Shown piece after piece: positions 816 to 11,586 of a stretch of DNA of 64,000 nucleotides (positions are counted from its first letter, which is position 1; every line of letters begins with the position of its first letter). The position numbers and the translations under genes are program-made. The notes beneath the pieces were generated by a model. That model worked only from the letters and a program-made list of their open reading frames with translations, did no database searches and was not told the origin of the DNA. Location of the stretch: contig NZ_AP023243.1 in NCBI RefSeq assembly GCF_016756495.1, forward strand, positions 2,236,501-2,300,500, in the 5' to 3' direction. The DNA is from Mesorhizobium sp. 113-3-3. Its GTDB lineage: Bacteria > Pseudomonadota > Alphaproteobacteria > Rhizobiales > Rhizobiaceae.

Positions 816-3494
816 TCACTCGGCCGCCTGAACGCGGTTGGCCTGGATGATGGCGCGGATCTCGGACCGGCAGGAGCCGCAATTGGTGCCGGCCTTCAGG
901 GCGCCTCCGATGGCTTCGACAGTGGTGCAGCCGGCAGCCACGGCGGCCATGATCTGGTTGGCCCCGATGCCAAAACAGGAGCAGACGGTCGCGCCGGCGT
1001 CAGGCCGATCGGCACCGGCGCGGCCGGCGACGATCCTAAAGCGTTCGCGTTGGCTGGCATGAGGCGTTTCCAACTGTTCAGCCGCCCAGCCGCGCGACAC
1101 CGCGACCGGGTCAGGCGCAACGAACAAGGCACCCACGAGGTGCTCGCCGTCGAAGGCGGCGATGCGGTGCTGGCCGGCGTCGCGGTCGTGATAGGCGAGC
1201 ATTTCGGCTGAGAAGGCATTGAAGAGCGAGTTGGCGAAGGCTGTCCAGTCGACAGTGTCGTCGGCAAAGGCCAGCTCGACCCGCCAGCCGCCTTTGCAGC
1301 GGGCTGCTGCCCAATAGTCGGCGTTGATCGCTTCCGGACGTTGCCGCGTCACGGCAAAACCAAAGACCTTGGCGGCAAATTTCTCGATGCGGGCCGCGAC
1401 ATGTTTTAGCGCCGGTTGGCCGGAAACAGGATCAGTCAGCGGCGCGGTGAGCGCGTCGAGCCGGCCTTTTGCCGCGAACTGATCGGTCCAGTGCATCGGC
1501 GCGAAGACGCTGCCCTGGCGCTGGCGAGATGTGATCAGGGCGCGGACCAGCACGTCGCCGCGCGGGCTGGATATGCGCACGATGTCGGCGTCGCCAATGC
1601 CGTGATGCTGCGCGTCCACGGGGTGGATTTCGACGAAGGGTTCGGCGATGTGCTGGGACAGACGCGGGCTTTTGCCGGTGCGCGTCATGGTGTGCCAGTG
1701 GTCGCGGATCCGGCCGGTGTTGAGGATGAGCGGGAAATCAGGGGTGGTGCGGATTTCGGTGGTGGGACGGATGGCGATGAAGCGGGCTTTGCGGTCGAGC
1801 GTGTAGAAATTGCCGTTGGCGAAGAAGCGGGTGGGTTGGTGCTCCGTCGTGCCGCCTCGTGGGCTGGGGGCTGGCCATTGGAATGGCTCAAGTGATGCAT
1901 AACTTTCAGCATCGGCCCCGGCATACGCACCGATATCGAAATCTCGCACGCCATCATTCTCGAACCCGGACAGCGCGGCGTGCTCGCCAAAAATCTCTGC
2001 CGGGGTCTCATGCGCGAACGCCTCGCCAAACCCCATCCGCCGCGCCACTTCGGCGATGATCCACCAGTCGGGCCGCGCTTCGCCGGGCGCCGCCAGAAAC
2101 GACCGCTGGCGCGAGATACGGCGCTCGGAGTTGGTGACGGTGCCGTCCTTCTCGCCCCAGGCGGTGGCGGGCAGCCGGACATGGGCGTGACGCACCGTGT
2201 CGGCGCTCGCCAGAACGTCCGATACCACGACGAACGAGCAAGCCTTGATCGCCGCTTCGACGGCATCGGCGTCAGGCATCGAATCGACCGGGTTTGTGGC
2301 CATGATCCACAGCGCCTTGATGCGCCCGTCGGCCACGCCTTGAAACATTTCGACGGCCTTCAGGCCGGGCTTCTGCGCGATGCCAGGCGCATTCCAGAAG
2401 CGGCACACGCGGTCGCGGTGCTCGGCGTTCTCGATCTCCATATGGGCGGCCAGCATGTTGGCCATGCCGCCGACCTCGCGGCCACCCATGGCGTTGGGCT
2501 GACCGGTCACCGAGAACGGGCCCGCTCCCGGTTTGCCGATCCGGCCGGTGGCGAGATGGCAGTTGATGATGGCGTTGACCTTGTCGGTGCCGGACGACGA
2601 CTGGTTCACGCCCTGGCTGTAGACGGTCACCGTCTTCGCGGTGGCAGCAAACAGGCTGTAGAAGCGGACAAGTTCGTCTTCGCTGAGGCCGGTGGCAGCG
2701 GCGACACCGGCAAGATCGAGCGCGGAGGCAGCAAAGAGCGCTTGCCCGAAGCCGGTCGTGTGCGCGGTGATATAGGCGCGGTCGAGCGCATTGTGCTGGC
2801 CGAGCCAGGCGAGCAGGCCGGTGAACAGAGCGACGTCGCCATCCGGTGCGATCGCCAGATGCATGTCGGCGATATCGGATGTCATGGTGCGGCGCGGATC
2901 GATCAGCACGATCTTCATCTCCGGCCGCTTTTCCCGGGCCGCCGCGATGCGCTGGAAGAGCACAGGGTGGCACCAGGCGAGGTTGGAGCCGACCAGCACG
3001 ATGAGGTCGGCAAGTTCCAGGTCCTCGTAGCTTCCAGGCACCGTGTCGGAGCCGAAGGCGCGGCGGTGGCCGGCGACGGACGAGGCCATGCAGAGGCGAG
3101 AGTTGGTGTCGATATTGGCCGAGCCGACAAAACCCTTCATCAGCTTGTTGGCGAGGTAATAGTCCTCGGTCAGCAACTGGCCGGAGACATAGAAGGCGAC
3201 CGCATCCGGCCCATGCTCGGCGATGGTCTGCGAGAAGGTCGAGGCGACATGGTCGAGCGCCTCGTTCCAGCCTGTCCGGCGGCCGTGGATTTCGGGGTGG
3301 AGCAGCCTGCCCTCGAGATCGATGGTCTCGGCCAGCGCCGACCCTTTGGAGCAGAGCCGGCCGAAATTCGCGGAATGGTCGGGGTCGCCGCGGACGGACA
3401 CTTGCCCATCCGCGGCGACCTTCGCCAGCACGCCGCAGCCCACCCCGCAATAGGGGCAGGTGGTCCTCACCTCGCGTGCTGCGTCGATCTCCAT
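816..3494 (-). CDS. nasA: Assimilatory nitrate reductase, large catalytic subunit
   Basis: It reduces nitrate to nitrite in the cytoplasm using Mo-bis-MGD and Fe-S centres. The 892-residue protein starts at the ATG at 3494, two bases after the nirD stop; a longer open frame reaching into nirD is a shadow. C13, C16, C20 and C48 bind an N-terminal [4Fe-4S] cluster (CPYCGVGC). A cysteine in NSRLCMAS is the expected Mo ligand. Central molybdopterin oxidoreductase and dinucleotide-binding domains follow. The C-terminal 60 residues carry a BFD-like [2Fe-2S] motif (CSCFG...NCGSC), typical of the long NasA type. It is the last gene of the nrt-nir-nas run, so its expression should depend on the leader ahead of nrtA. 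Confidence 0.96.
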   Translation of the reverse strand: MEIDAAREVRTTCPYCGVGCGVLAKVAADGQVSVRGDPDHSANFGRLCSKGSALAETIDLEGRLLHPEIHGRRTGWNEALDHVASTFSQTIAEHGPDAVAFYVSGQLLTEDYYLANKLMKGFVGSANIDTNSRLCMASSVAGHRRAFGSDTVPGSYEDLELADLIVLVGSNLAWCHPVLFQRIAAAREKRPEMKIVLIDPRRTMTSDIADMHLAIAPDGDVALFTGLLAWLGQHNALDRAYITAHTTGFGQALFAASALDLAGVAAATGLSEDELVRFYSLFAATAKTVTVYSQGVNQSSSGTDKVNAIINCHLATGRIGKPGAGPFSVTGQPNAMGGREVGGMANMLAAHMEIENAEHRDRVCRFWNAPGIAQKPGLKAVEMFQGVADGRIKALWIMATNPVDSMPDADAVEAAIKACSFVVVSDVLASADTVRHAHVRLPATAWGEKDGTVTNSERRISRQRSFLAAPGEARPDWWIIAEVARRMGFGEAFAHETPAEIFGEHAALSGFENDGVRDFDIGAYAGADAESYASLEPFQWPAPSPRGGTTEHQPTRFFANGNFYTLDRKARFIAIRPTTEIRTTPDFPLILNTGRIRDHWHTMTRTGKSPRLSQHIAEPFVEIHPVDAQHHGIGDADIVRISSPRGDVLVRALITSRQRQGSVFAPMHWTDQFAAKGRLDALTAPLTDPVSGQPALKHVAARIEKFAAKVFGFAVTRQRPEAINADYWAAARCKGGWRVELAFADDTVDWTAFANSLFNAFSAEMLAYHDRDAGQHRIAAFDGEHLVGALFVAPDPVAVSRGWAAEQLETPHASQRERFRIVAGRAGADRPDAGATVCSCFGIGANQIMAAVAAGCTTVEAIGGALKAGTNCGSCRSEIRAIIQANRVQAAE

Positions 3495-3496
3495 GG

Positions 3497-3826
3497 TCAG
3501 GCGGCGCGGCTGGCCAGCGCTTCCAGCGCCAGGAACAGGTGCTCGCCCTCGACCTTGACCGGAATGGTGCGCACCACGCCTTCGTCGGCGCCGAGCGCCT
3601 TGCCTGTCTCCAGCGAGATGACCCAATTGTGCAGGGGACAGGTCACCGCCGCGCCATGGACGATGCCCTGGCTCAGCGGCCCGCCCTTGTGCGGGCAGTG
3701 GTCGTCGATGGCATAGACCTGATCGTCCTGTGTGCGGAAGACGGCGACCTTGCCTTGCGGGGTGGCGACACAGCGCGCGCCACGGCGCGGGATGTCGGAG
3801 ATGGTGCCGATGGCGATCCAGTTCAT
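3497..3826 (-). CDS. nirD: Nitrite reductase (NADH) small subunit
   Basis: This 109-residue Rieske-type protein is the small partner of NirB in cytoplasmic assimilatory nitrite reduction to ammonium. The Rieske ligands are visible: C44 and H46 in CPHKG, C63 and H66 in CPLHNW. The start chosen is the ATG at 3826 (MNWIAIG), since the open frame continues upstream only as a shadow of nirB. It lies 5 bases after the nirB stop and 2 bases before the nasA start, so the three are translated from one message. Confidence 0.96.
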   Translation of the reverse strand: MNWIAIGTISDIPRRGARCVATPQGKVAVFRTQDDQVYAIDDHCPHKGGPLSQGIVHGAAVTCPLHNWVISLETGKALGADEGVVRTIPVKVEGEHLFLALEALASRAA

Positions 3827-3831
3827 ACTAA

Positions 3832-6282
3832 TCACTCCGCCGCCTGCGCAAACCCGACAGAGGCCATCGGCCGGAACTCGTGCTTGTCCTTGCCGGAGAC
3901 ACGTTCCGACCACGGGTCGACCTGGGCGAATTTTTGGCTGAACACGAAGCGCTCGTAGTAGGCCTTGCGCTTGCTCGCATCGTCCATGATCTGACGCTTG
4001 ATCTCGGGGATGCCGATGCGCTTGGCCCATTTGTAGATACGCTCGAGATAGCGGCCTTGCTCGCGGTACATCTGCGTCAGCGCCACGATATGCTCCAGCG
4101 CCTCGTCCTCGGTCTTCACCAGGCCCAACACCTCCGTGCCCTTGATGTCGAGGCCGGCGGCGCCGGCGAAATGAATCTCGTAGCCCGAGTCGACGCAGAT
4201 GACGCCGACATCCTTGCAGGTCGCCTCGGCGCAGTTGCGAGGACAACCCGACACCGCCATCTTGACCTTGGCCGGGGTCCACGAGCCCCACATGAATTTC
4301 TCGATACGGATGCCGAGCCCCGTCGAATCCTGCGTGCCGAAGCGGCACCAGTCGGAACCGACACAGGTCTTCACGGTGCGCAGGCCCTTGGCGTAGGCGT
4401 GGCCGGAGACGAAGCCGGCCTGGCCAAGATCGGCCCACACCGCCGGCAGGTCTTCCTTGCGGATGCCGAGCATATCGATGCGCTGGCCACCGGTAACCTT
4501 GACCATCGGAATCTCGAACTTGTCGACGACATCGGCGATGGCGCGCAGTTCGGCGGCATTGGTGACGCCACCCCACATGCGCGGCACCACCGAATAGGTA
4601 CCGTCCTTCTGGATGTTGGCGTGCACGCGCTCGTTGATGAAACGCGACTGGTAGTCGTCGGCGTAGTCGTCCGGCCAGTCGCAGACGAGATAGTAATTGA
4701 GCGCCGGCCGGCATTTGGCGCAGCCGCAGGAGGTCTTCCACTCCAGTTCCTGCATGACGGCGGGAATGGTCTTCAGGTGCTTGGCCTTGATCAGCCGGCG
4801 CACCTCGTCATGGCCGAGCGTGGTGCAGGAGCACATGGGTTGCACGGCCGCCGGGTTGTAGGTGTCGCCGAGGGTCAGCACCATCAGCTTCTCGACCAGC
4901 CCGGTGCAGGAGCCGCACGAGGCCGACGCCTTGGTGTGGGCGCGCACGTCGTCGAGCGAGGTCAGGCCCTTGGCCGTGATCGCGCCGGTGATCTTTCCCT
5001 TGCAAACGCCGTTGCAGCCGCAGATTTCCGCATCATCCGGCAAGGCTGCAACGGCCGCCATAGGGTCCAGCGGGGCACCCCCCTGGTAGGACTGGCCGAA
5101 GATCAACGTGTCGCGCATTTGCGAAATGTCGGTCTGCTTCTTCTTGAGATCGTTGAACCAGGCGCCGTCCGCCGTCTCGCCGTAAAGCACGGTGCCGATG
5201 ATGCGGTCGTCCTTGAGCACCAGCCGCTTGTAGACACCGGCGGCGGCGTCGCGCAGCACGATCTCCTGGCGGTCCTCGCCCTCGGCGAAGTCGCCTAGCG
5301 AGAACAGGTCGATGCCGGTGACCTTGAGCTTGGTCGGCGTGTCCATATGGACGAAAGCGGCCGCTTCGTTGCCGGCAAGCTGACTGGCGGCGACACGCGC
5401 CATCTCGTAGAGTGGCGCGACCAGCCCGTAGACCATGCCGTTGACCTCGGCGCATTCGCCGAGCGCGTAGATGTCGGGGTCGTTGCTGCGCATGCCGGCA
5501 TCGACGACGATGCCTCTGTTGACGGCGATGCCGGCTTCTTTCGCCAGCGCCGCGTTCGGCCTTATGCCGACGGCCATGACCACCAGCGTCGCCCGAATGA
5601 TCGTGCCGTCGGCGAGTTCCACCTGCTCGACCTTGCCGTTGCCCGTGATTGCCTGGGTGTTGGCCTTGGTGATGACCTTGATGCCGCGTTGCTCCACGGC
5701 GCGCTGCAGGAGATAGCCGGCGGCCGGATCGAGCTGGCGCTCCATCAGCGTCGGCATGACATGCAGCACGGTGACGTCCATGCCTTGCGCGTTGAGGCCG
5801 GCCGCCGCCTCCAGCCCGAGCAGGCCGCCGCCGATGACCACGGCCTTGGCCCGCGACTGGGCGGCGAGCATCATCGCCTGGACGTCGTCGAGATCGCGAT
5901 AGGTCAGCACGCCGGGCAGATTGTGGCCCGGCACCGGAATGATGAAAGGCACCGAGCCGGTGGCGATGATCAGCTTGTCGTAGGGTTCGGTCACGCCATG
6001 GTCGGAGGTGACGGTCTTCGCCTGCCGGTCGATGGCAACGATCTTGTGGCCCTTGTAGAGGGTGATGTTGTTGGCGATGTACCAGCCGTCGCCATGGATG
6101 ATGATTTCCTCATAGGCCTTCTCGCCGGAGAGGACCGGCGACAGCATGATGCGGTCGTAATTGACGCGCGGCTCGGCGTTGAAGATGGTGACGCTGTAAC
6201 GGCCCGGCGCTTGTTCCAGGAGATGCTCCAGCATGCGCCCGGGGGCCATGCCGTTGCCGATGATGACGAGTTTTTCGCTCAT
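3832..6282 (-). CDS. nirB: Nitrite reductase (NADH) large subunit
   Basis: This is the 816-residue catalytic subunit for six-electron reduction of nitrite to ammonium. In order: an FAD/NAD(P)H-binding pyridine-nucleotide reductase region (residues 1-400, starting MSEKLVIIGNGMAPG), a BFD-like [2Fe-2S] domain (CGCNGVC...CGSC, about 425-470), a second Cys-rich stretch (MCSCTTLG...CGCAKC), then the ferredoxin-like and sirohaem/[4Fe-4S] domain. The sirohaem cysteines lie in CVGSDWC and SGCPRNC near residues 640 and 680. Length is normal for the NirB family. The gene starts 4 bases after the nrtD stop. Confidence 0.97.
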   Translation of the reverse strand: MSEKLVIIGNGMAPGRMLEHLLEQAPGRYSVTIFNAEPRVNYDRIMLSPVLSGEKAYEEIIIHGDGWYIANNITLYKGHKIVAIDRQAKTVTSDHGVTEPYDKLIIATGSVPFIIPVPGHNLPGVLTYRDLDDVQAMMLAAQSRAKAVVIGGGLLGLEAAAGLNAQGMDVTVLHVMPTLMERQLDPAAGYLLQRAVEQRGIKVITKANTQAITGNGKVEQVELADGTIIRATLVVMAVGIRPNAALAKEAGIAVNRGIVVDAGMRSNDPDIYALGECAEVNGMVYGLVAPLYEMARVAASQLAGNEAAAFVHMDTPTKLKVTGIDLFSLGDFAEGEDRQEIVLRDAAAGVYKRLVLKDDRIIGTVLYGETADGAWFNDLKKKQTDISQMRDTLIFGQSYQGGAPLDPMAAVAALPDDAEICGCNGVCKGKITGAITAKGLTSLDDVRAHTKASASCGSCTGLVEKLMVLTLGDTYNPAAVQPMCSCTTLGHDEVRRLIKAKHLKTIPAVMQELEWKTSCGCAKCRPALNYYLVCDWPDDYADDYQSRFINERVHANIQKDGTYSVVPRMWGGVTNAAELRAIADVVDKFEIPMVKVTGGQRIDMLGIRKEDLPAVWADLGQAGFVSGHAYAKGLRTVKTCVGSDWCRFGTQDSTGLGIRIEKFMWGSWTPAKVKMAVSGCPRNCAEATCKDVGVICVDSGYEIHFAGAAGLDIKGTEVLGLVKTEDEALEHIVALTQMYREQGRYLERIYKWAKRIGIPEIKRQIMDDASKRKAYYERFVFSQKFAQVDPWSERVSGKDKHEFRPMASVGFAQAAE

Positions 6283-6286
6283 TGGT

Positions 6287-7084
6287 CTACTCCGCGGCTT
6301 CGACGAAGCGGTGGCGTTCGTAGAGGAACTTCAACACCGCCTCGCGGCAGCGCAGGAAGGTGCGGTCGGAAGAGACTTCGACGCGCCGGCGAGGCCGCGC
6401 CAGCGACACGGGCAGCACCTCGCCGATGGTTGCCGCCGGACCGTTGGTCATCATGACGATGCGGTCGGACAAGAGCACCGCCTCGTCGACATCATGGGTG
6501 ATCATGATCGTCGTCGAGCCGAGCCTGGAATGGATGTCCATTACCGCGTCCTGCAGATGCGCGCGCGTCAGCGCGTCGAGCGCGCCGAACGGCTCGTCGA
6601 GCAGCAGAATCTTCGGCTCCATGGCGAGCGCGCGGGCGATGCCGACGCGCTGCTTCATACCGCCGGAGATCTCGGCAGGCCGCTTGTCCCTGGCATGCGC
6701 CATCTGCACGAGGTCGAGATTGCGCATGATCCAGTCATGCCGCTCGGCCTTGCTCTTCGAACGACCGAAGACTTTCGAGACCGCCAGGTTGATGTTCTCG
6801 TAGACGGTCAGCCAGGGCAGCAGCGAATGGTTCTGGAACACCACGGCGCGTTCGGGTCCGGGGCTGTCGACTTCCTTGTTTTCGAGCAGCACGGCGCCGG
6901 CGGAGACCTTGGTCAGGCCGGCGATCAGGTTGAGCAAGGTCGACTTGCCGCAGCCGGAATGGCCGATGATGGAGACGAATTCGCCCTTGTCGATGGTCAG
7001 CCTGATATCCCTCAGAACCTCGCTGACCTGGCCGCCGCGGGCGAAGGATTTGTCGATATGGTCGAGTTTCAGATAGGCGGTCAT
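6287..7084 (-). CDS. nrtD: Nitrate/nitrite ABC transporter ATP-binding protein
   Basis: This 265-residue ATPase powers uptake of nitrate through NrtB. It shows Walker A (GHSGCGKST), the LSGG-equivalent EISGGMKQR and Walker B (ILLLDEPFGALDA), followed by the switch histidine in MITHDVDEA. It is a single-domain ATPase; the fused NrtC type with an extra NrtA-like domain is absent. It sits between the permease and nirB, with short spacers on both sides. The nitrate specificity is inferred from the operon and family resemblance. Confidence 0.94.
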   Translation of the reverse strand: MTAYLKLDHIDKSFARGGQVSEVLRDIRLTIDKGEFVSIIGHSGCGKSTLLNLIAGLTKVSAGAVLLENKEVDSPGPERAVVFQNHSLLPWLTVYENINLAVSKVFGRSKSKAERHDWIMRNLDLVQMAHARDKRPAEISGGMKQRVGIARALAMEPKILLLDEPFGALDALTRAHLQDAVMDIHSRLGSTTIMITHDVDEAVLLSDRIVMMTNGPAATIGEVLPVSLARPRRRVEVSSDRTFLRCREAVLKFLYERHRFVEAAE

Positions 7085-7094
7085 GGCGCTGTCC

Positions 7095-7985
7095 TCACTT
7101 TGCCGTTGTGCCGCGGGTGACGAAGGCGCCGACGCCAGCGACCAGCCGGTCGAGGCAGAAGCCGGTGACGCCGATATAGGCGAGCGCGACGATGATGTCG
7201 GGCAGCCGCGACGAGTTCCACGCGTCCCAGATGAAGAAGCCGATGCCGACGCCGCCGGTCAGCATTTCGGCGGCGACAATGGCGAGCCAGGACAGGCCGA
7301 TGCCGATGCGCAGGCCGGTGAAGATGTAGGGCGCGGCGGCCGGCACCATGATCTTGACGAAGAATTCGAACTGGTTAAGCCGCAGGATGCGCGAGACGTT
7401 GCGGTAGTCCTCGGGAATGTTGCGCACACCAACGGCGGTGTTGATGATGATCGGCCAGATCGAGGTGATGAAGATGACGAACAGCGCCGACGGGCTGGAA
7501 TCGCGGAATGCCGCCAGCGACAGCGGCAGCCAGGCCAGCGGCGGCACGGTGCGCAGGATCTGGAAGACCGGATCGAGGCCGCGCATCGCCCAGATCGACT
7601 GGCCGACCAGCGCGCCGAGCGCGACGCCGACGATCGCCGCCAGGCCAAAGCCGATGGCGACGCGCTGCAGCGAGATCAGCACCCGCCAGGCGAGGCCAAT
7701 ATCCTGCGGGCCAATGTCGAAGAACGGATGCGCGATCAGATCGTAGGCGTCGTTCCACACCTGGCTCGGCGGCGGCAGGCTCGATGTCGGCGACGAGCAG
7801 GCGACCTGCCAGACGACGAGCATCAGGGCGATGACGACGATCGGCGGCACCAGCGTGCTTGCCAGCTTGCCGGCGATGGCGAGCGGGTCGAAGCGGCGCC
7901 GCGCCCTGGCGGTGAAGGCAATCACCTCAGCCGGTTTGGCGGGGAACGCCTTCACCTTGATATCCTCGATAGTCTGGATCGACAT
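7095..7985 (-). CDS. nrtB: Nitrate/nitrite ABC transporter permease
   Basis: This is a 296-residue inner-membrane permease of the NrtB/SsuC type. The start chosen is the ATG at 7985 (MSIQTIEDIK); the frame stays open upstream but that stretch is the nrtA-nrtB spacer and reads unlike a protein. Several hydrophobic segments are visible from residue 45 onward (for example LVPPIVVIALMLVVWQVA). The EAA-like cytoplasmic loop for ATPase contact is near residue 190-210 (NIPEDYRNVSRIL). It follows nrtA by about 107 bases and precedes nrtD by 10 bases. Confidence 0.94.
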   Translation of the reverse strand: MSIQTIEDIKVKAFPAKPAEVIAFTARARRRFDPLAIAGKLASTLVPPIVVIALMLVVWQVACSSPTSSLPPPSQVWNDAYDLIAHPFFDIGPQDIGLAWRVLISLQRVAIGFGLAAIVGVALGALVGQSIWAMRGLDPVFQILRTVPPLAWLPLSLAAFRDSSPSALFVIFITSIWPIIINTAVGVRNIPEDYRNVSRILRLNQFEFFVKIMVPAAAPYIFTGLRIGIGLSWLAIVAAEMLTGGVGIGFFIWDAWNSSRLPDIIVALAYIGVTGFCLDRLVAGVGAFVTRGTTAK

Positions 7986-8092
7986 GTCTGGGAAAAACTC
8001 CGTGGGGGCACTGGCGAAAGGCGCTGGGGGACAAACGGCGCAGTGCGCCGTTTGTGTGCGACAACGGCGCAAGAGGCACCGTTGCGCTTGGA

Positions 8093-9421
8093 TTAAGCCG
8101 ACGCCTTGATCTTAAGGCTGTCGAGATAGGCGGACGGGTTGGCCGGATCGAAGATCTTGCCGTCGAAGAAGGTTTCCGTGCCGCGCGACGAGGAGGCCGG
8201 AATGTCGGCCGCCGCCACACCGAGATCCCTGGCCGCCTCGCGCCACAGATCCTCGCGGTTGACCTGGTCGACCAGCGCCTTGATGTCGGTGGTCGGCGCG
8301 AATTTACCCCAGCGGATGTTCTCGGCGAGGAACCAGGAATCATGGCTCTTGTAGGGGTAGGAAACGCCGCCCTTCCAGAACTTCATGGAGAGATCGGTGC
8401 CGTTGGCGACGCGGCCATTGCCGTAATTGATGTCGCCCTTGAGGCGGCCGATGATGTCGGCGACCGGCACGTTCATCCATTGCCGCTTGCCGATGATGGC
8501 GGCCATCTCGTTCTTGTTCTCCTTGGCCTCGCACCATTGCTGGGCTTCCATGACGGCCATCAGGATCGCCTTGGTGGCGTTCGGGTTCTTCTCGATGAAT
8601 TCGGCGCGCAGGCCGAGCGCCTTTTCCGGATGGCCCTTCCACAATTCGCCCGTGGTGGCGGCGGTGAAGCCGACGCCCTGGTGGACGAGCTGCTCGTTCC
8701 ATGGTTCTCCGACGCAGAAGACGTCCATGTTGCCGACCTTCATGTTGGCCACCATCTGCGGCGGCGGGACGACGATGGTCGAGACGTCCTTGTCGGGATC
8801 GATGCCGCCGGCGGCCAGCCAGTAGCGCAGCCACAGATCGTGCGTGCCGCCCGGGAAGGTCATGGCGGCCTTGATTTCCTTGCCGGCCGCCTTCTTGGCC
8901 GCGAAGGCATCCTTCAGCTTGGAGGCGTCGAGGCCGACACCGGTGCCGGTATATTCCTGCGCGACCGAAATGCCCTGGCAGTCGTAGTTGAGCCGCGCCA
9001 CGATCGCCATCGGCATGGGCTGGTTGTTCTGCGTCACCTTGCCGGTGTGCATGAGGTACGGCAGCGGCGTCAGTATGTGGGCGCCGTCTATGCCGTTGGC
9101 GGCACCGCCGAGCATCAGATTGTCGCGCGTCGCCCCCCACGACGCCTGCTTCAGCACCTCGACATCGGGCATACCGAATTTGGCGAACAGGCCCTTCTCC
9201 TTGGCGATCATCAGCGGTGCGGCATCGGTCAGCGCGATGAAGCCGAGCTTGGCGCCGGTAACTTCCGGCGCGGCGGTGGCGGCATAGGCGCCGGATGGAA
9301 ACAGCTTGCGGGCCGCCATGAACAGGCCGGCCGTCATGGCGCTGCTGACCAGAAAATCGCGACGCGTCACATCCTTGGGCGATGTTCCCGTCCCGATCCA
9401 GTTCTTCATCGTCTTCTTCAT
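8093..9421 (-). CDS. nrtA: Nitrate/nitrite ABC transporter substrate-binding protein
   Basis: This 442-residue periplasmic nitrate-binding protein begins at the ATG at 9421, behind a GGAG Shine-Dalgarno sequence. A twin-arginine export signal is seen (TRRDFLVSSAMTAG, residues 19-32) followed by a hydrophobic stretch and an AYA-like cleavage site. The mature part matches NrtA/NasF (GFIALTDAAPLMIA; WGATRDNLMLGG). The frame open further upstream reads through the regulatory leader and is not coding. It is the first structural gene after the NasT-responsive leader and is paralogous to nasS, which lacks the export signal. Confidence 0.95.
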   Translation of the reverse strand: MKKTMKNWIGTGTSPKDVTRRDFLVSSAMTAGLFMAARKLFPSGAYAATAAPEVTGAKLGFIALTDAAPLMIAKEKGLFAKFGMPDVEVLKQASWGATRDNLMLGGAANGIDGAHILTPLPYLMHTGKVTQNNQPMPMAIVARLNYDCQGISVAQEYTGTGVGLDASKLKDAFAAKKAAGKEIKAAMTFPGGTHDLWLRYWLAAGGIDPDKDVSTIVVPPPQMVANMKVGNMDVFCVGEPWNEQLVHQGVGFTAATTGELWKGHPEKALGLRAEFIEKNPNATKAILMAVMEAQQWCEAKENKNEMAAIIGKRQWMNVPVADIIGRLKGDINYGNGRVANGTDLSMKFWKGGVSYPYKSHDSWFLAENIRWGKFAPTTDIKALVDQVNREDLWREAARDLGVAAADIPASSSRGTETFFDGKIFDPANPSAYLDSLKIKASA

Positions 9422-9452: not shown

Positions 9453-9521
9453 AAAAAAGCCGCCGGCCAGGTCCTCGCGCCCGAGAGACCGGGAGCGCGT
9501 TTTGACCTGAGCGGCAGCTTT
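9453..9521 (-). terminator. Regulated intrinsic terminator ahead of nrtA
   Basis: On the minus strand the arm AAAGCTGCCGCTCAGGTC (9504-9521) pairs with GACCTGGCCGGCGGCTTT (9456-9473), with one mismatch and two wobbles, directly followed by a T-tract (9453-9458). The loop region can form an inner stem. Because its 5' arm overlaps hairpin P2 of the ANTAR motif, NasT binding is expected to prevent it forming. Confidence 0.85.
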
Positions 9522-9546
9522 GCCTGTAGCGCCCGCCATTGGACGC
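9513..9546 (-). promoter_or_regulatory. ANTAR-target two-hairpin RNA (NasT antiterminator) in nrtA leader
   Basis: Hairpin P1 (9529-9546) has a six-pair stem GCGTCC/GGGCGC, one pair being a wobble, and a hexaloop AATGGC. After a four-base TACA spacer, hairpin P2 (9513-9524) has a GGC/GCC stem and a hexaloop AAAGCT. Both loops carry A at position 1 and G at position 4, the known signature of RNAs bound by ANTAR proteins such as NasT/NasR/EutV. The P2 loop and 3' strand are part of the 5' arm of the terminator, so P2 and the terminator are mutually exclusive. Confidence 0.8.
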
Positions 9547-9582
9547 CTGTTCCGTGACCCGCGAAGGGTCTGATTATTTCAA

Positions 9583-9707: not shown

Positions 9708-9722
9708 GCACAATTTTTGTGC
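9708..9722 (-). promoter_or_regulatory. Putative NtrC binding site
   Basis: The sequence GCACAATTTTTGTGC is a perfect dyad fitting the enterobacterial NtrC pattern GCAC-N7-GTGC. Its centre lies about 140 bases upstream of the predicted sigma-54 transcription start, a normal enhancer distance. A partly overlapping dyad, TTGTGCAATGCACAA at 9717-9731, could be a second, non-canonical half of the enhancer. Binding is inferred. Confidence 0.6.
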
Positions 9723-9748: not shown

Positions 9749-10987
9749 TCAGGCTTCCGCGCGGGCCGATTTCTGGCGCTCGATATACGCCTCGATCTGG
9801 TCGGGATCGAAAATCTGGCCGTCGAAGAAGCCGTCCGGGCCGAGCACGAGACCAGCCCCGGTCGCGCCGACCGCAGTGGCGACCTTGAGCGCGCCTTCGA
9901 CCTTCGCATTGGCGCCAGGCAGCGCGACGCCAAGCGGCTTCAGCGCCGAGCGGTAGAGGTCGGGCCGGTAGCAATCCCGGGCGATGGCGAGATTGTCGGG
10001 CGTGTGCGACACATGCCCCCAACGCACCATCTGCGTGTAGAACCAAAGCGCATGGCTCTTCCACGGAAAGTTTGCCGCCTTGTCGAAGGGCAGGAAGAAG
10101 TCGTCGATATCCAGTTGCGCTCCGCCGCCCAATTGCAGATGGCCGGTCAGGATCGGCATCTGCACGGCCGGCGGCAGGCCGAGGAAGCCTGGCTGCGCCA
10201 TCACATTGGCCAATTCGGCGTGGTTGGCCGGGTCCTGGCACCAGCGTGCGGAGTGATGCAGCGCGCGCAGCAGTGCCGCCAGCGCCTCGGGATTCTCGTC
10301 CGCCCAGGCCTTGCGCACGCCGATCACCTTCTCCGGGCTGTTGCGCCATATCCGCGCCTTGACGGTGACGATATGGCCGGTGCCGGCCGCGACCGCGGCG
10401 CTGTTCCAGGGCTCGCCGACACAGTAGCCGTCGATGCGCCCGGTGGCGAGCGCGTCGGCCATGAAGGGCGGCGGCACTATGACGATCTCGATTTCGCGGT
10501 CCGGGTCGATGCCGCAAGCGGCGAGCCAGTAGCGCAGTTCGTAGTTGTGCCCGGAATGCGGATGCACGACGGCAAAGCGCAGCGGCTCGCGGCCTGCCAC
10601 CGCCCGTTCACGGATGAACGCATTAAGGGCCGCGCCCGCGCGTGCCGGATCGAGATCGGCTTCGGCGCCATGCGCCGCCATGCCGGCCCAGACGGCGTTG
10701 GAGATGGTGACGCAATTGCCGCCGAGCCCGAGCGAGAATGGCACGATGGTCTCGGAAGCGAGCGGCGTCAGCCCGAGATTGCAGGCGAGCGGCATGGGTC
10801 CCAGCATATGGGCGAGATCGAAATGGCCGATGGCGATACGGTCACGGATGTTGGCCCAGGAGGTCTCGCGGTGCAGCGTAAGGTCGATGCCTTCGCGGGC
10901 GGCGAAGCCAAGCGCGCTCGCGGCGACCAGCACTGCGCTGTCGAAGAGCGGCATGAAGCCGGCGGTGATCTGGTGCCTCATGCTCAT
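9749..10987 (-). CDS. nasS: NasS nitrate sensor, cytoplasmic NrtA-like protein
   Basis: This 412-residue protein resembles NrtA but starts directly with MSMRHQITAGFMPL and lacks an export signal, as expected for the NasS sensor that holds NasT inactive until nitrate or nitrite binds. Conserved ligand-site stretches shared with NrtA are visible (HMLGPMPLACNLG; YCVGEPWN; FPWKSHALWF). Its ATG overlaps the nasT stop codon (ATGA, 10984-10987), so the two are translationally coupled. An in-frame ATG at 10981 is an alternative start. Role is inferred from known NasS-NasT pairs in Azotobacter, Paracoccus and rhizobia. Confidence 0.93.
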   Translation of the reverse strand: MSMRHQITAGFMPLFDSAVLVAASALGFAAREGIDLTLHRETSWANIRDRIAIGHFDLAHMLGPMPLACNLGLTPLASETIVPFSLGLGGNCVTISNAVWAGMAAHGAEADLDPARAGAALNAFIRERAVAGREPLRFAVVHPHSGHNYELRYWLAACGIDPDREIEIVIVPPPFMADALATGRIDGYCVGEPWNSAAVAAGTGHIVTVKARIWRNSPEKVIGVRKAWADENPEALAALLRALHHSARWCQDPANHAELANVMAQPGFLGLPPAVQMPILTGHLQLGGGAQLDIDDFFLPFDKAANFPWKSHALWFYTQMVRWGHVSHTPDNLAIARDCYRPDLYRSALKPLGVALPGANAKVEGALKVATAVGATGAGLVLGPDGFFDGQIFDPDQIEAYIERQKSARAEA

Positions 10988-11586
10988 TCGTCCTCCGCCG
11001 GCCCCAGCAGCCCGGCCGCGGTCACCAGGCTCTGCGCGATGTCGCTGATCTTGCGGTTCTGGTTCATCGCCGTCTTGCGCAGCAGCGTATAGGCGGCCTC
11101 TTCGGAGAGGCCGCGCGACTTCATCAGGATGCCCTTGGCGCGATCGATCACCTTGCGGCTCTCGAGCTCGCTGCGCGCCTCTTCCAGTTCACGCGCCATG
11201 CGCGAAAAAGCATTGAAGCGGCTCACCGCCATGTCGAGGATCGGCTTGACGCGCTCTTGCCGCAGGCCGTCGACGACATAGGCGGATACGCCGGCATCGA
11301 CCGCGGCCTCGATCGAGGCCTGGTCGGATCGGTCGACGAACATGGCGATGGGGCGCTTCACGGCGCGCGACAGCTGGAACATGTTTTCGAGCATGTCGCG
11401 GTTGGGGTTCTCGAGATCGATGACGATGACGTCGGGTTCGATTTCGGCGATCCGCCGCGCAATGCCGGTCACGTCGTGGATGACGGTGACACGCTGATGG
11501 CCGGCCTCGCGCAGGCCGGCCTCGATGATTGAGGCGCGGATGCGATTTTCATCAATCACCAGGACGGCTAGGGAGGATCGGACCAT
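10984..11586 (-). CDS. nasT: NasT ANTAR-domain antiterminator
   Basis: This 200-residue regulator has an N-terminal receiver-like domain (VLVIDENRIRASII; DVIVIDLENP around residue 50) and a C-terminal ANTAR RNA-binding domain at about 130-190 (DRAKGILMKSRGLSEEAAY, then a three-helix end). ANTAR proteins of this kind bind paired hexaloop hairpins to prevent termination; exactly such an RNA precedes nrtA. It is the first gene of nasT-nasS, which overlap by four bases. It has its own upstream region containing a long hairpin at 11620-11666. Confidence 0.95.
   Translation of the reverse strand: MVRSSLAVLVIDENRIRASIIEAGLREAGHQRVTVIHDVTGIARRIAEIEPDVIVIDLENPNRDMLENMFQLSRAVKRPIAMFVDRSDQASIEAAVDAGVSAYVVDGLRQERVKPILDMAVSRFNAFSRMARELEEARSELESRKVIDRAKGILMKSRGLSEEAAYTLLRKTAMNQNRKISDIAQSLVTAAGLLGPAEDE

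Follow-up and report, generated by a model that had tools for sequence, protein, structure and literature searches.

The nitrate assimilation genes nrtABD-nirBD-nasA lie on the minus strand of the window (the whole stretch of 64,000 nucleotides of Mesorhizobium sp. 113-3-3 analysed here), directly downstream of nasT and nasS. This raises the question of what the leader between nasS and nrtA does to transcription of the genes behind it. The sequence-only reading had seen in it a riboregulator responsive to NasT and had placed NasT, as an ANTAR protein, and NasS in the same window. Profile matches and structure alignments bear out the identity of both proteins, and the genes read as follows on the minus strand.

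10984..11586, minus strand: nasT, with a receiver domain and an ANTAR RNA-binding domain (80.0 bits to Pfam ANTAR, 33.8 bits to Response_reg)
9749..10987, minus strand: nasS, nitrate sensor, NrtA-like binding protein (NMT1_2 247 bits; 4-base overlap with nasT)
8093..9421, minus strand: nrtA, binding protein of the nitrate ABC transporter and first gene predicted to be regulated (NMT1_2 profile; start ATG 9421)
7095..8072, minus strand: nrtB, permease (TIGR01183 305.6 bits, cut-off 209.05)
6287..7084, minus strand: nrtD, ATPase (TIGR01184 334.9 bits, cut-off 291.8)
3832..6282, minus strand: nirB, nitrite reductase large subunit (TIGR02374 907.8 bits)
3497..3850 (approximate limits), minus strand: nirD, Rieske-type small subunit (Rieske_2 63.3 bits)
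816..3626, minus strand: nasA-like molybdopterin nitrate reductase (Pfam Molybdopterin and Fer2_BFD; under the NCBIfam NasC/NasA cut-offs)

The nitrate reductase at 816-3626 has a C-terminal BFD-like [2Fe-2S] domain, of a kind also present in NirB.

NasT aligned to the EutV structures 6wsh and 6ww6 and to NasR 4akk, and NasS matched the NrtA crystal structure 2g29 (E 1.3e-49) as well as nitrate transporter chains. The pair has the make-up of a NasS-NasT system, an ANTAR response-regulator-like NasT together with an NrtA-like NasS. In an ungapped alignment with EutV, NasT retained residues matching K143, Y164, R168, M172 and N173 and had N and K at the positions of R175 and R177 (residue list from PMC8934654, published work being cited here and below from excerpts of the papers; a two-residue offset between the numbering of the paper and that of the chain is presumed). 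The protein is 100% identical to the NasT of Mesorhizobium carmichaelinearum.

The stretch from the nasS stop at 9749 to the nrtA ATG at 9421 contains the following elements, all on the minus strand.

9708..9722, minus strand: NtrC-like dyad GCAC-N7-GTGC, seen by eye
9598-9583, minus strand: sigma54-type -24/-12 promoter TGGCACGGTTCCTGCT, read from the sequence
9556..9570, minus strand: P0, a short, G+C-rich hairpin GACCC(TTCGC)GGGTC, adjoining the expected transcript start
9547-9528, minus strand: P1, hairpin GGCGTCC(AATGGC)GGGCGCT, hexaloop at 9540-9535 with A1 and G4
9524-9513, minus strand: P2, hairpin GGC(AAAGCT)GCC, hexaloop at 9521-9516 with A1 and G4, 3-bp stem
9521-9453, minus strand: intrinsic terminator, whose 5' arm opens with the P2 loop and the P2 3' arm; six T at 9458-9453

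The two hexaloops AATGGC and AAAGCT, each starting with A and having G in fourth place, were thus present as first read, and they lie on the minus strand. The four-base spacing then given between the hairpins holds if P1 is counted as six pairs and comes to three bases with the seven-pair P1, two pairs of which are G.U. Likewise, the span first assigned, 9453..9546, was right at the terminator end and one base short at the P1 end, since P1 starts at 9547. The claim that P2 shares bases with the 5' arm of a strong terminator stood up: A9521..G9512 pair with C9465..T9456 in the terminator, and the whole loop and 3' arm of P2 are common to both folds. The terminator folded at -40.2 kcal/mol (z -4.67), an energy that 0/200 shuffles equalled. 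A stretch of 103 nt reached z -4.75 (0/200 shuffles), the 201-nt leader z -2.11 (3/200) and P1 plus P2 alone z -1.56 (14/200); the plus-strand fold of the leader region, at z -0.78, was barely above shuffles. The lowest-energy fold of the leader lacked P2, as would be expected if P2 needs a protein, and the isolated P2 loop of the window species shrank to a tetraloop through A1-U6 pairing.

The sigma54-type promoter and the upstream hairpin P0 had not figured in the sequence-only reading. P0 folded at -6.9 kcal/mol (z -2.99), and the P0-containing stretch upstream of P1 had a mean z of -1.57 across 71 leaders, measured against simple shuffles; the P0 arms vary between lineages as judged by eye, a weak support. 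A sigma70 scan gave nothing. The letters suggest that initiation may be under sigma54/NtrC control. The dyad at 9708..9722 fits the NtrC consensus inexactly, and a loose pattern of such a kind occurred in 31/71 leaders; for this dyad, we can only infer a role of NtrC.

Dual hairpins of this shape are easily met by chance. Applied to the window, a bare descriptor returned 5 hexaloop pairs on one strand and 3 on the other, of which a single one overlapped a terminator; applied to ten random one-strand sequences with the length and dinucleotide make-up of the window, it returned 43 pairs, 4 with a terminator. As random sequences match at a similar rate, the dual-hairpin and terminator shape, taken alone, is near chance level and is no evidence. 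What lifts the leader above chance is its recurrence at the same locus and its covariation. Among 80 nasT loci (the best 80 of 531 relatives, a choice that favours close ones), a complete canonical element followed nasS in 70, one of them, L070, being a chimera described below. A seventy-first, in Aminobacter (L040), had the canonical element with the P2 loop GAAGCT, which breaks A1. Another leader class was present in 7/80, and two loci (L009, L027) had no leader after nasS. Two matches of our first descriptor, L077 and L079, were rejected as canonical: they look accidental, and both loci belong to the other class. A1 and G4 were demanded by the search, and the invariance of both is in part built in. 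Across the 71 canonical leaders, among them that of the window, the P1-P2 linker was 2-8 nt long, with P1 taken as six and P2 as three pairs.

We then looked at covariation in 44 leaders picked by hand for diversity from the 71, window included. P1 and P2 were paired in 96.6% of cells and had 5 pairs changed on both sides, a number reached by 1/500 shuffles. The terminator stem was paired in 99.1% of cells and had 4 double-changed pairs, a weak measure here, as 157/500 shuffles also reached it. For P1 plus P2 and for the terminator alike, no shuffle out of 500 reached the covariation score, which fell far lower when partners were slid by 1 to 3 columns. The bases shared by the two folds were followed through all 71 leaders. 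The third base of the P2 3' arm, with its P2 partner and its terminator partner, read G-C-G in 55, A-T-A in 13 and otherwise in 3; position 3 of the P2 loop and its terminator partner read A-T in 63, G-C in 4, C-G in 2 and otherwise in 2. On a quick NasT+NasS tree, used for counting events, the three-way triplet had 3 changes per base with only 2 independent pairs on supported branches, and loop position 3 had 7 changes; of its 7 independent pairs, 5 agreed, 2 were unchanged and none went the other way (p 0.0625). It therefore appears that both mutually exclusive folds have been kept, although independent replication is modest for the shared bases. The covariance search of the leader in relatives, which had been proposed as a check, thus came out in favour of the element, which recurs in 71/80 nasT loci with covariation of both folds.

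A possible alternative is that NasT works mainly through translation or RNA stability and not through termination. As a matter of fact, the Paracoccus study proposes a further, translational level (PMC5424462), and ANTAR sites near ribosome sites exist (PMC3369931). However, the likely ribosome site of nrtA, GGAG at 9431-9428, is outside the element, about 20 bases beyond the T run, and the terminator stem is itself under pairing constraint. We regard this alternative as very improbable.

A marginally less probable one is that the structure does no more than terminate the nasTS operon and that the hairpins before it are accidental. It is favoured by the position just downstream of nasS and by the near-chance level of the shape. 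Against it, a sigma54-type promoter stands between nasS and the hairpins, and its loose pattern was found upstream of P1 in 65/71 canonical leaders (all but L031, L039, L048, L053, L070 and L074). P1 lies outside the terminator, yet 4 of its pairs were changed on both sides in the 44 leaders. The element also occurs far from nasS. Using a covariance model, R1, built from 60 leaders, we found a second strong copy in 13/61 genomes of the genus, 12 of them about 3.5 kb from the first and one, in G028, at 0.8 kb. In both cases opened (G001 and G008; L127, L128), this copy lay between nrtD and nirB with a promoter pattern of its own. The gene after the second copy in G001 encodes a major-facilitator transporter, for which NCBIfam NarK was best at 202.7 bits (cut-off 311.7). 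No second copy exists in the window, where the nrtD and nirB frames (6287, 6282) are 4 bases apart. Attenuation by a leader peptide from the ATG at 9539, inside the P1 loop, is next to negligible: an open frame does begin there, but the ATG requires T at loop position 3, present in only 38/67 distinct leaders, it has no good ribosome site by eye, and its frame differs from that of nrtA and stays open through the end of the stretch read.

NasT-dependent antitermination is left as the best explanation, given the NasT and NasS domains, the ANTAR-site anatomy and the joint presence of leader and NasT in the genus. Among the 61 genomes, own included, R1 found the leader in 53 (E up to 0.1), NasT was present in 53, and the same 8 lacked both (G006, G009, G013, G022, G024, G037, G042, G051). 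This co-absence may be the joint loss of one gene cluster, as leader and nasT sit together. Twelve weak genus matches at E 0.036-0.088 were taken as chance. In its own 7.7-Mb genome, R1 found one strong site (63.3 bits), while the next of the 17 matches listed had E 1.07 and 21.6 bits, which gives no support to a more extensive NasT regulon there. The genome had 4 ANTAR matches, the last doubtful and in a protein of unrelated-looking sequence. Besides NasT, two of these four are ANTAR proteins above the Pfam cut-off (L094 at C1:6149797 and L095 at C1:741241), and no further strong R1 site in the genome was attributable to them. In a class-wide draw, R1 matched 2/289 genomes, own included, and so barely extended outside the order in this sample.

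We consider it very likely that the stretch is a NasT-operated, nitrate-released transcription antiterminator in front of nrtABD-nirBD-nasA. Apart from what the sequences show (anatomy, conservation, covariation in both folds, gene neighbourhood and one strong genomic site), this reading draws on published relatives, by analogy with which nitrate would release NasT for binding and read-through. The sigma54 RNA polymerase would start near 9572. Without nitrate, NasT would be held by NasS, P1 would form, the P2 region would be absorbed in the terminator 5' arm, and transcription would end in the run of T at 9458-9453. When nitrate is present, NasS would free NasT, which would bind the hexaloops of both hairpins by way of their A1 and G4 bases. 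Bound NasT would keep P2 from the terminator 3' arm and so permit read-through into nrtABD-nirBD-nasA.

The element is another ANTAR antiterminator of the already published EutV/NasR/NasT type. Of the features that define the dual-hairpin antiterminator in PMC3369931, the following are found: two stems of at least 3 pairs (P1 with 7, P2 with 3, the minimum), A1/G4 hexaloops, a P2 that overlaps an intrinsic terminator, and an ANTAR protein, NasT, encoded adjacent. Dual hexaloops with A1 and G4 are described for EutV and NasR (PMC3369931, PMC7496416, PMC8934654), and the EutV antiterminator resembles ours in its two hairpins, its A1/G4 hexaloops and its P2 embedded in the terminator (PMC3369931, PMC8934654). 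EutV is activated by phosphorylation, whereas NasT would be released by NasS. The linker also differs, 3-4 nt in the window versus 5-12 nt in the eut genes of E. faecalis. Linkers of 3 and 14 nt impaired eutP (PMC3369931), and EutV no longer acted once 20 nt had been added to the linker (PMC8934654).

The closest likeness in arrangement is to nasABGHC of Paracoccus denitrificans (PMC3795266, PMC5424462), with nasTS directly upstream, a leader of about 200 bp with hairpins, and an assimilatory operon downstream. There, NasS and NasT dissociate and NasT binds the nasA leader in the presence of nitrate (PMC3795266), and mutation of the leader hairpin costs growth on nitrate (PMC5424462). We count NasT-leader binding with nitrate as a point in common, predicted in the case of Mesorhizobium. 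In contrast, the operon content differs, the Mesorhizobium window carrying the nrtABD transporter, and a dual-hexaloop structure at base level is not given in the passages of PMC3795266 and PMC5424462 consulted. Bradyrhizobium diazoefficiens likewise has an alpha-proteobacterial NasT that acts on leader hairpins, or is predicted to, at nosR, nirA and coxS, and that interferes with the terminator before nosR (PMC6759348); it has several NasT targets, as opposed to the one strong site in the window's genome. Yet narK-bjgb-flp, with predicted NasT hairpins, went up and not down in the nasT mutant (PMC6759348). A predicted NasT site is thus no proof of positive control.

The other leader class noted above was carried by seven of the 80 loci (L071, L073, L075-L077, L079, L080), whose records are named Rhizobium, Agrobacterium, Rhizobiales bacterium and, in one case, a MAG labelled Arenimonas. 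After nasS, these leaders had a sigma54 pattern, a P1 with the loop AANGGC, a stem-loop that we call PX, and a P2 of the form GAC(ANNGAC)GTC, whose 3' arm is able to pair with the terminator sequence GCGGCGT. The window leader lies outside this class: its linker is 3-4 nt, and R2, a model built from the seven leaders, had no match in its genome (E up to 0.001). At the same threshold, R2 matched 40/247 genomes of the window's family, with 42 matches. R1 matched 69 genomes in the same draw, and three genomes (G089, G187, G252) were common to both lists. In the order, R2 matched 10/297 genomes, six of them outside the window's family and in two other families; five of these six loci (L189-L193) had the same spacing on reading.

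We compared 36 distinct leaders, drawn from the seven and from 30 family loci (L129-L158) fetched out of the 42 matches, with a pattern that fixed the P1 loop AANGGC and the P2 stem and left the P2 loop free. A1 and G4 were present in the P2 loop of 36/36, though the leaders behind R2 already had these letters. The linker measured 30-39 nt, and 3-14 nt without its folded part, as counted on the lowest-energy folds of the linkers themselves, which had a mean z of -2.26 against simple shuffles. The PX stem was paired in 83.3% of cells, and 5/6 of its pairs were double-changed. For the whole structure, the covariation score was reached by 0/500 shuffles and the count of double-changed pairs by 98/500; the three pairs of P2 are invariant and hence uninformative. 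For comparison, a survey of actinobacterial ANTAR targets retained linkers of 2-25 nt only (PMC8164766). No inserted stem turned up in the titles and abstract openings of the literature on NasT leaders of Rhizobium and Agrobacterium.

In three chimeras, L070 (7060-7320), L186 and L187, P1 and PX of the inserted-stem type stood ahead of a canonical set of P1, P2 and terminator. The NasT of the seven loci differed from that of 72 others at several ANTAR positions; for instance, residue 166 was F and residue 177 was K in 7/7, as in the chimera L070, while among the 72, Y stood at 166 in 71 and N at 177 in all 72. These fixed ANTAR differences may reflect descent rather than adaptation.

At the Rfam gathering cut-off, the window contained only a tRNA, and 20 leader loci of both classes contained nothing. 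The window leader is a member neither of narK RNA (RF03032; 15.9 bits, cut-off 43.2) nor of P11 (RF00625; 14.8 bits, cut-off 70). However, sigma54 promoter letters open the printed consensus of both families, which also contains a hexaloop, AAAGAC or AAAGGC, with a closing C-G pair. They resemble our leader in having this promoter before an A1/G4 hexaloop, with dual hexaloops in their matches. A search of 249 genomes of the phylum with RF03032 gave 11 genomes at E 0.001 (9 above the cut-off) and 17 matches (L195-L211). The pattern showed the promoter in place in 13/17 (L196, L197, L202 and L203 falling outside), and 11 of these 13 had both A1/G4 hexaloop hairpins, the exceptions being L200, with too weak a P1, and L208, with G at position 1 of P2. 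All 11 genomes had a single ANTAR match, with an RF03032 match at most 1.8 kb away on the same contig.

P11 was above its cut-off in 24/25 genomes of one genus, and lay 3.2-3.5 kb from a narK RNA match in the three genomes common to both searches (G916, G919, G985). The ten P11 loci fetched (L212-L221, out of 26 matches) all had P1, a middle hairpin and P2, that is, the inserted-stem layout; the middle hairpin has an A1/G4 hexaloop, a feature that the descriptor demanded. Where examined, matches of both families could be read as a sigma54 promoter, A1/G4 hexaloop hairpins and a terminator. A link between P11 and antitermination may already be in print in work of Romeo et al. from 2012. A 2025 paper describes P11 as regulating a nitrogen-assimilation operon of P. 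aeruginosa PA14 (PMC12080996). No publication naming narK RNA or tying it to ANTAR proteins appeared in our literature search, in the parts of the records seen. Our observations suggest that narK RNA looks like a sigma54 promoter followed by a dual-hexaloop ANTAR leader, and P11 is probably of the same kind.

Collectively, we think it probable that the inserted-stem leaders are a second NasT-leader architecture, in which PX would either bring P1 and P2 within working distance across the 30-39 nt linker or add a third contact. This architecture would extend from the window's family to two or more further families of the order, with a diverged NasS, fixed changes in the NasT ANTAR domain, chimeras and a recurrence in P11, and narK RNA would likewise be a NasT/ANTAR leader with a sigma54 promoter. 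The inserted-stem class and this reading of narK RNA are the parts that a specialist may not expect.

The Mesorhizobium leader shows cleanly, base by base, how two mutually exclusive folds each constrain the pairing of the bases they share; with its single site, it is also an easy target to test. For narK RNA, the explanation would provide a protein and a signal for that RNA family. If the second architecture is true, the published limits on ANTAR linkers miss a whole class of targets, and the inserted-stem class would alter how ANTAR targets are searched for.
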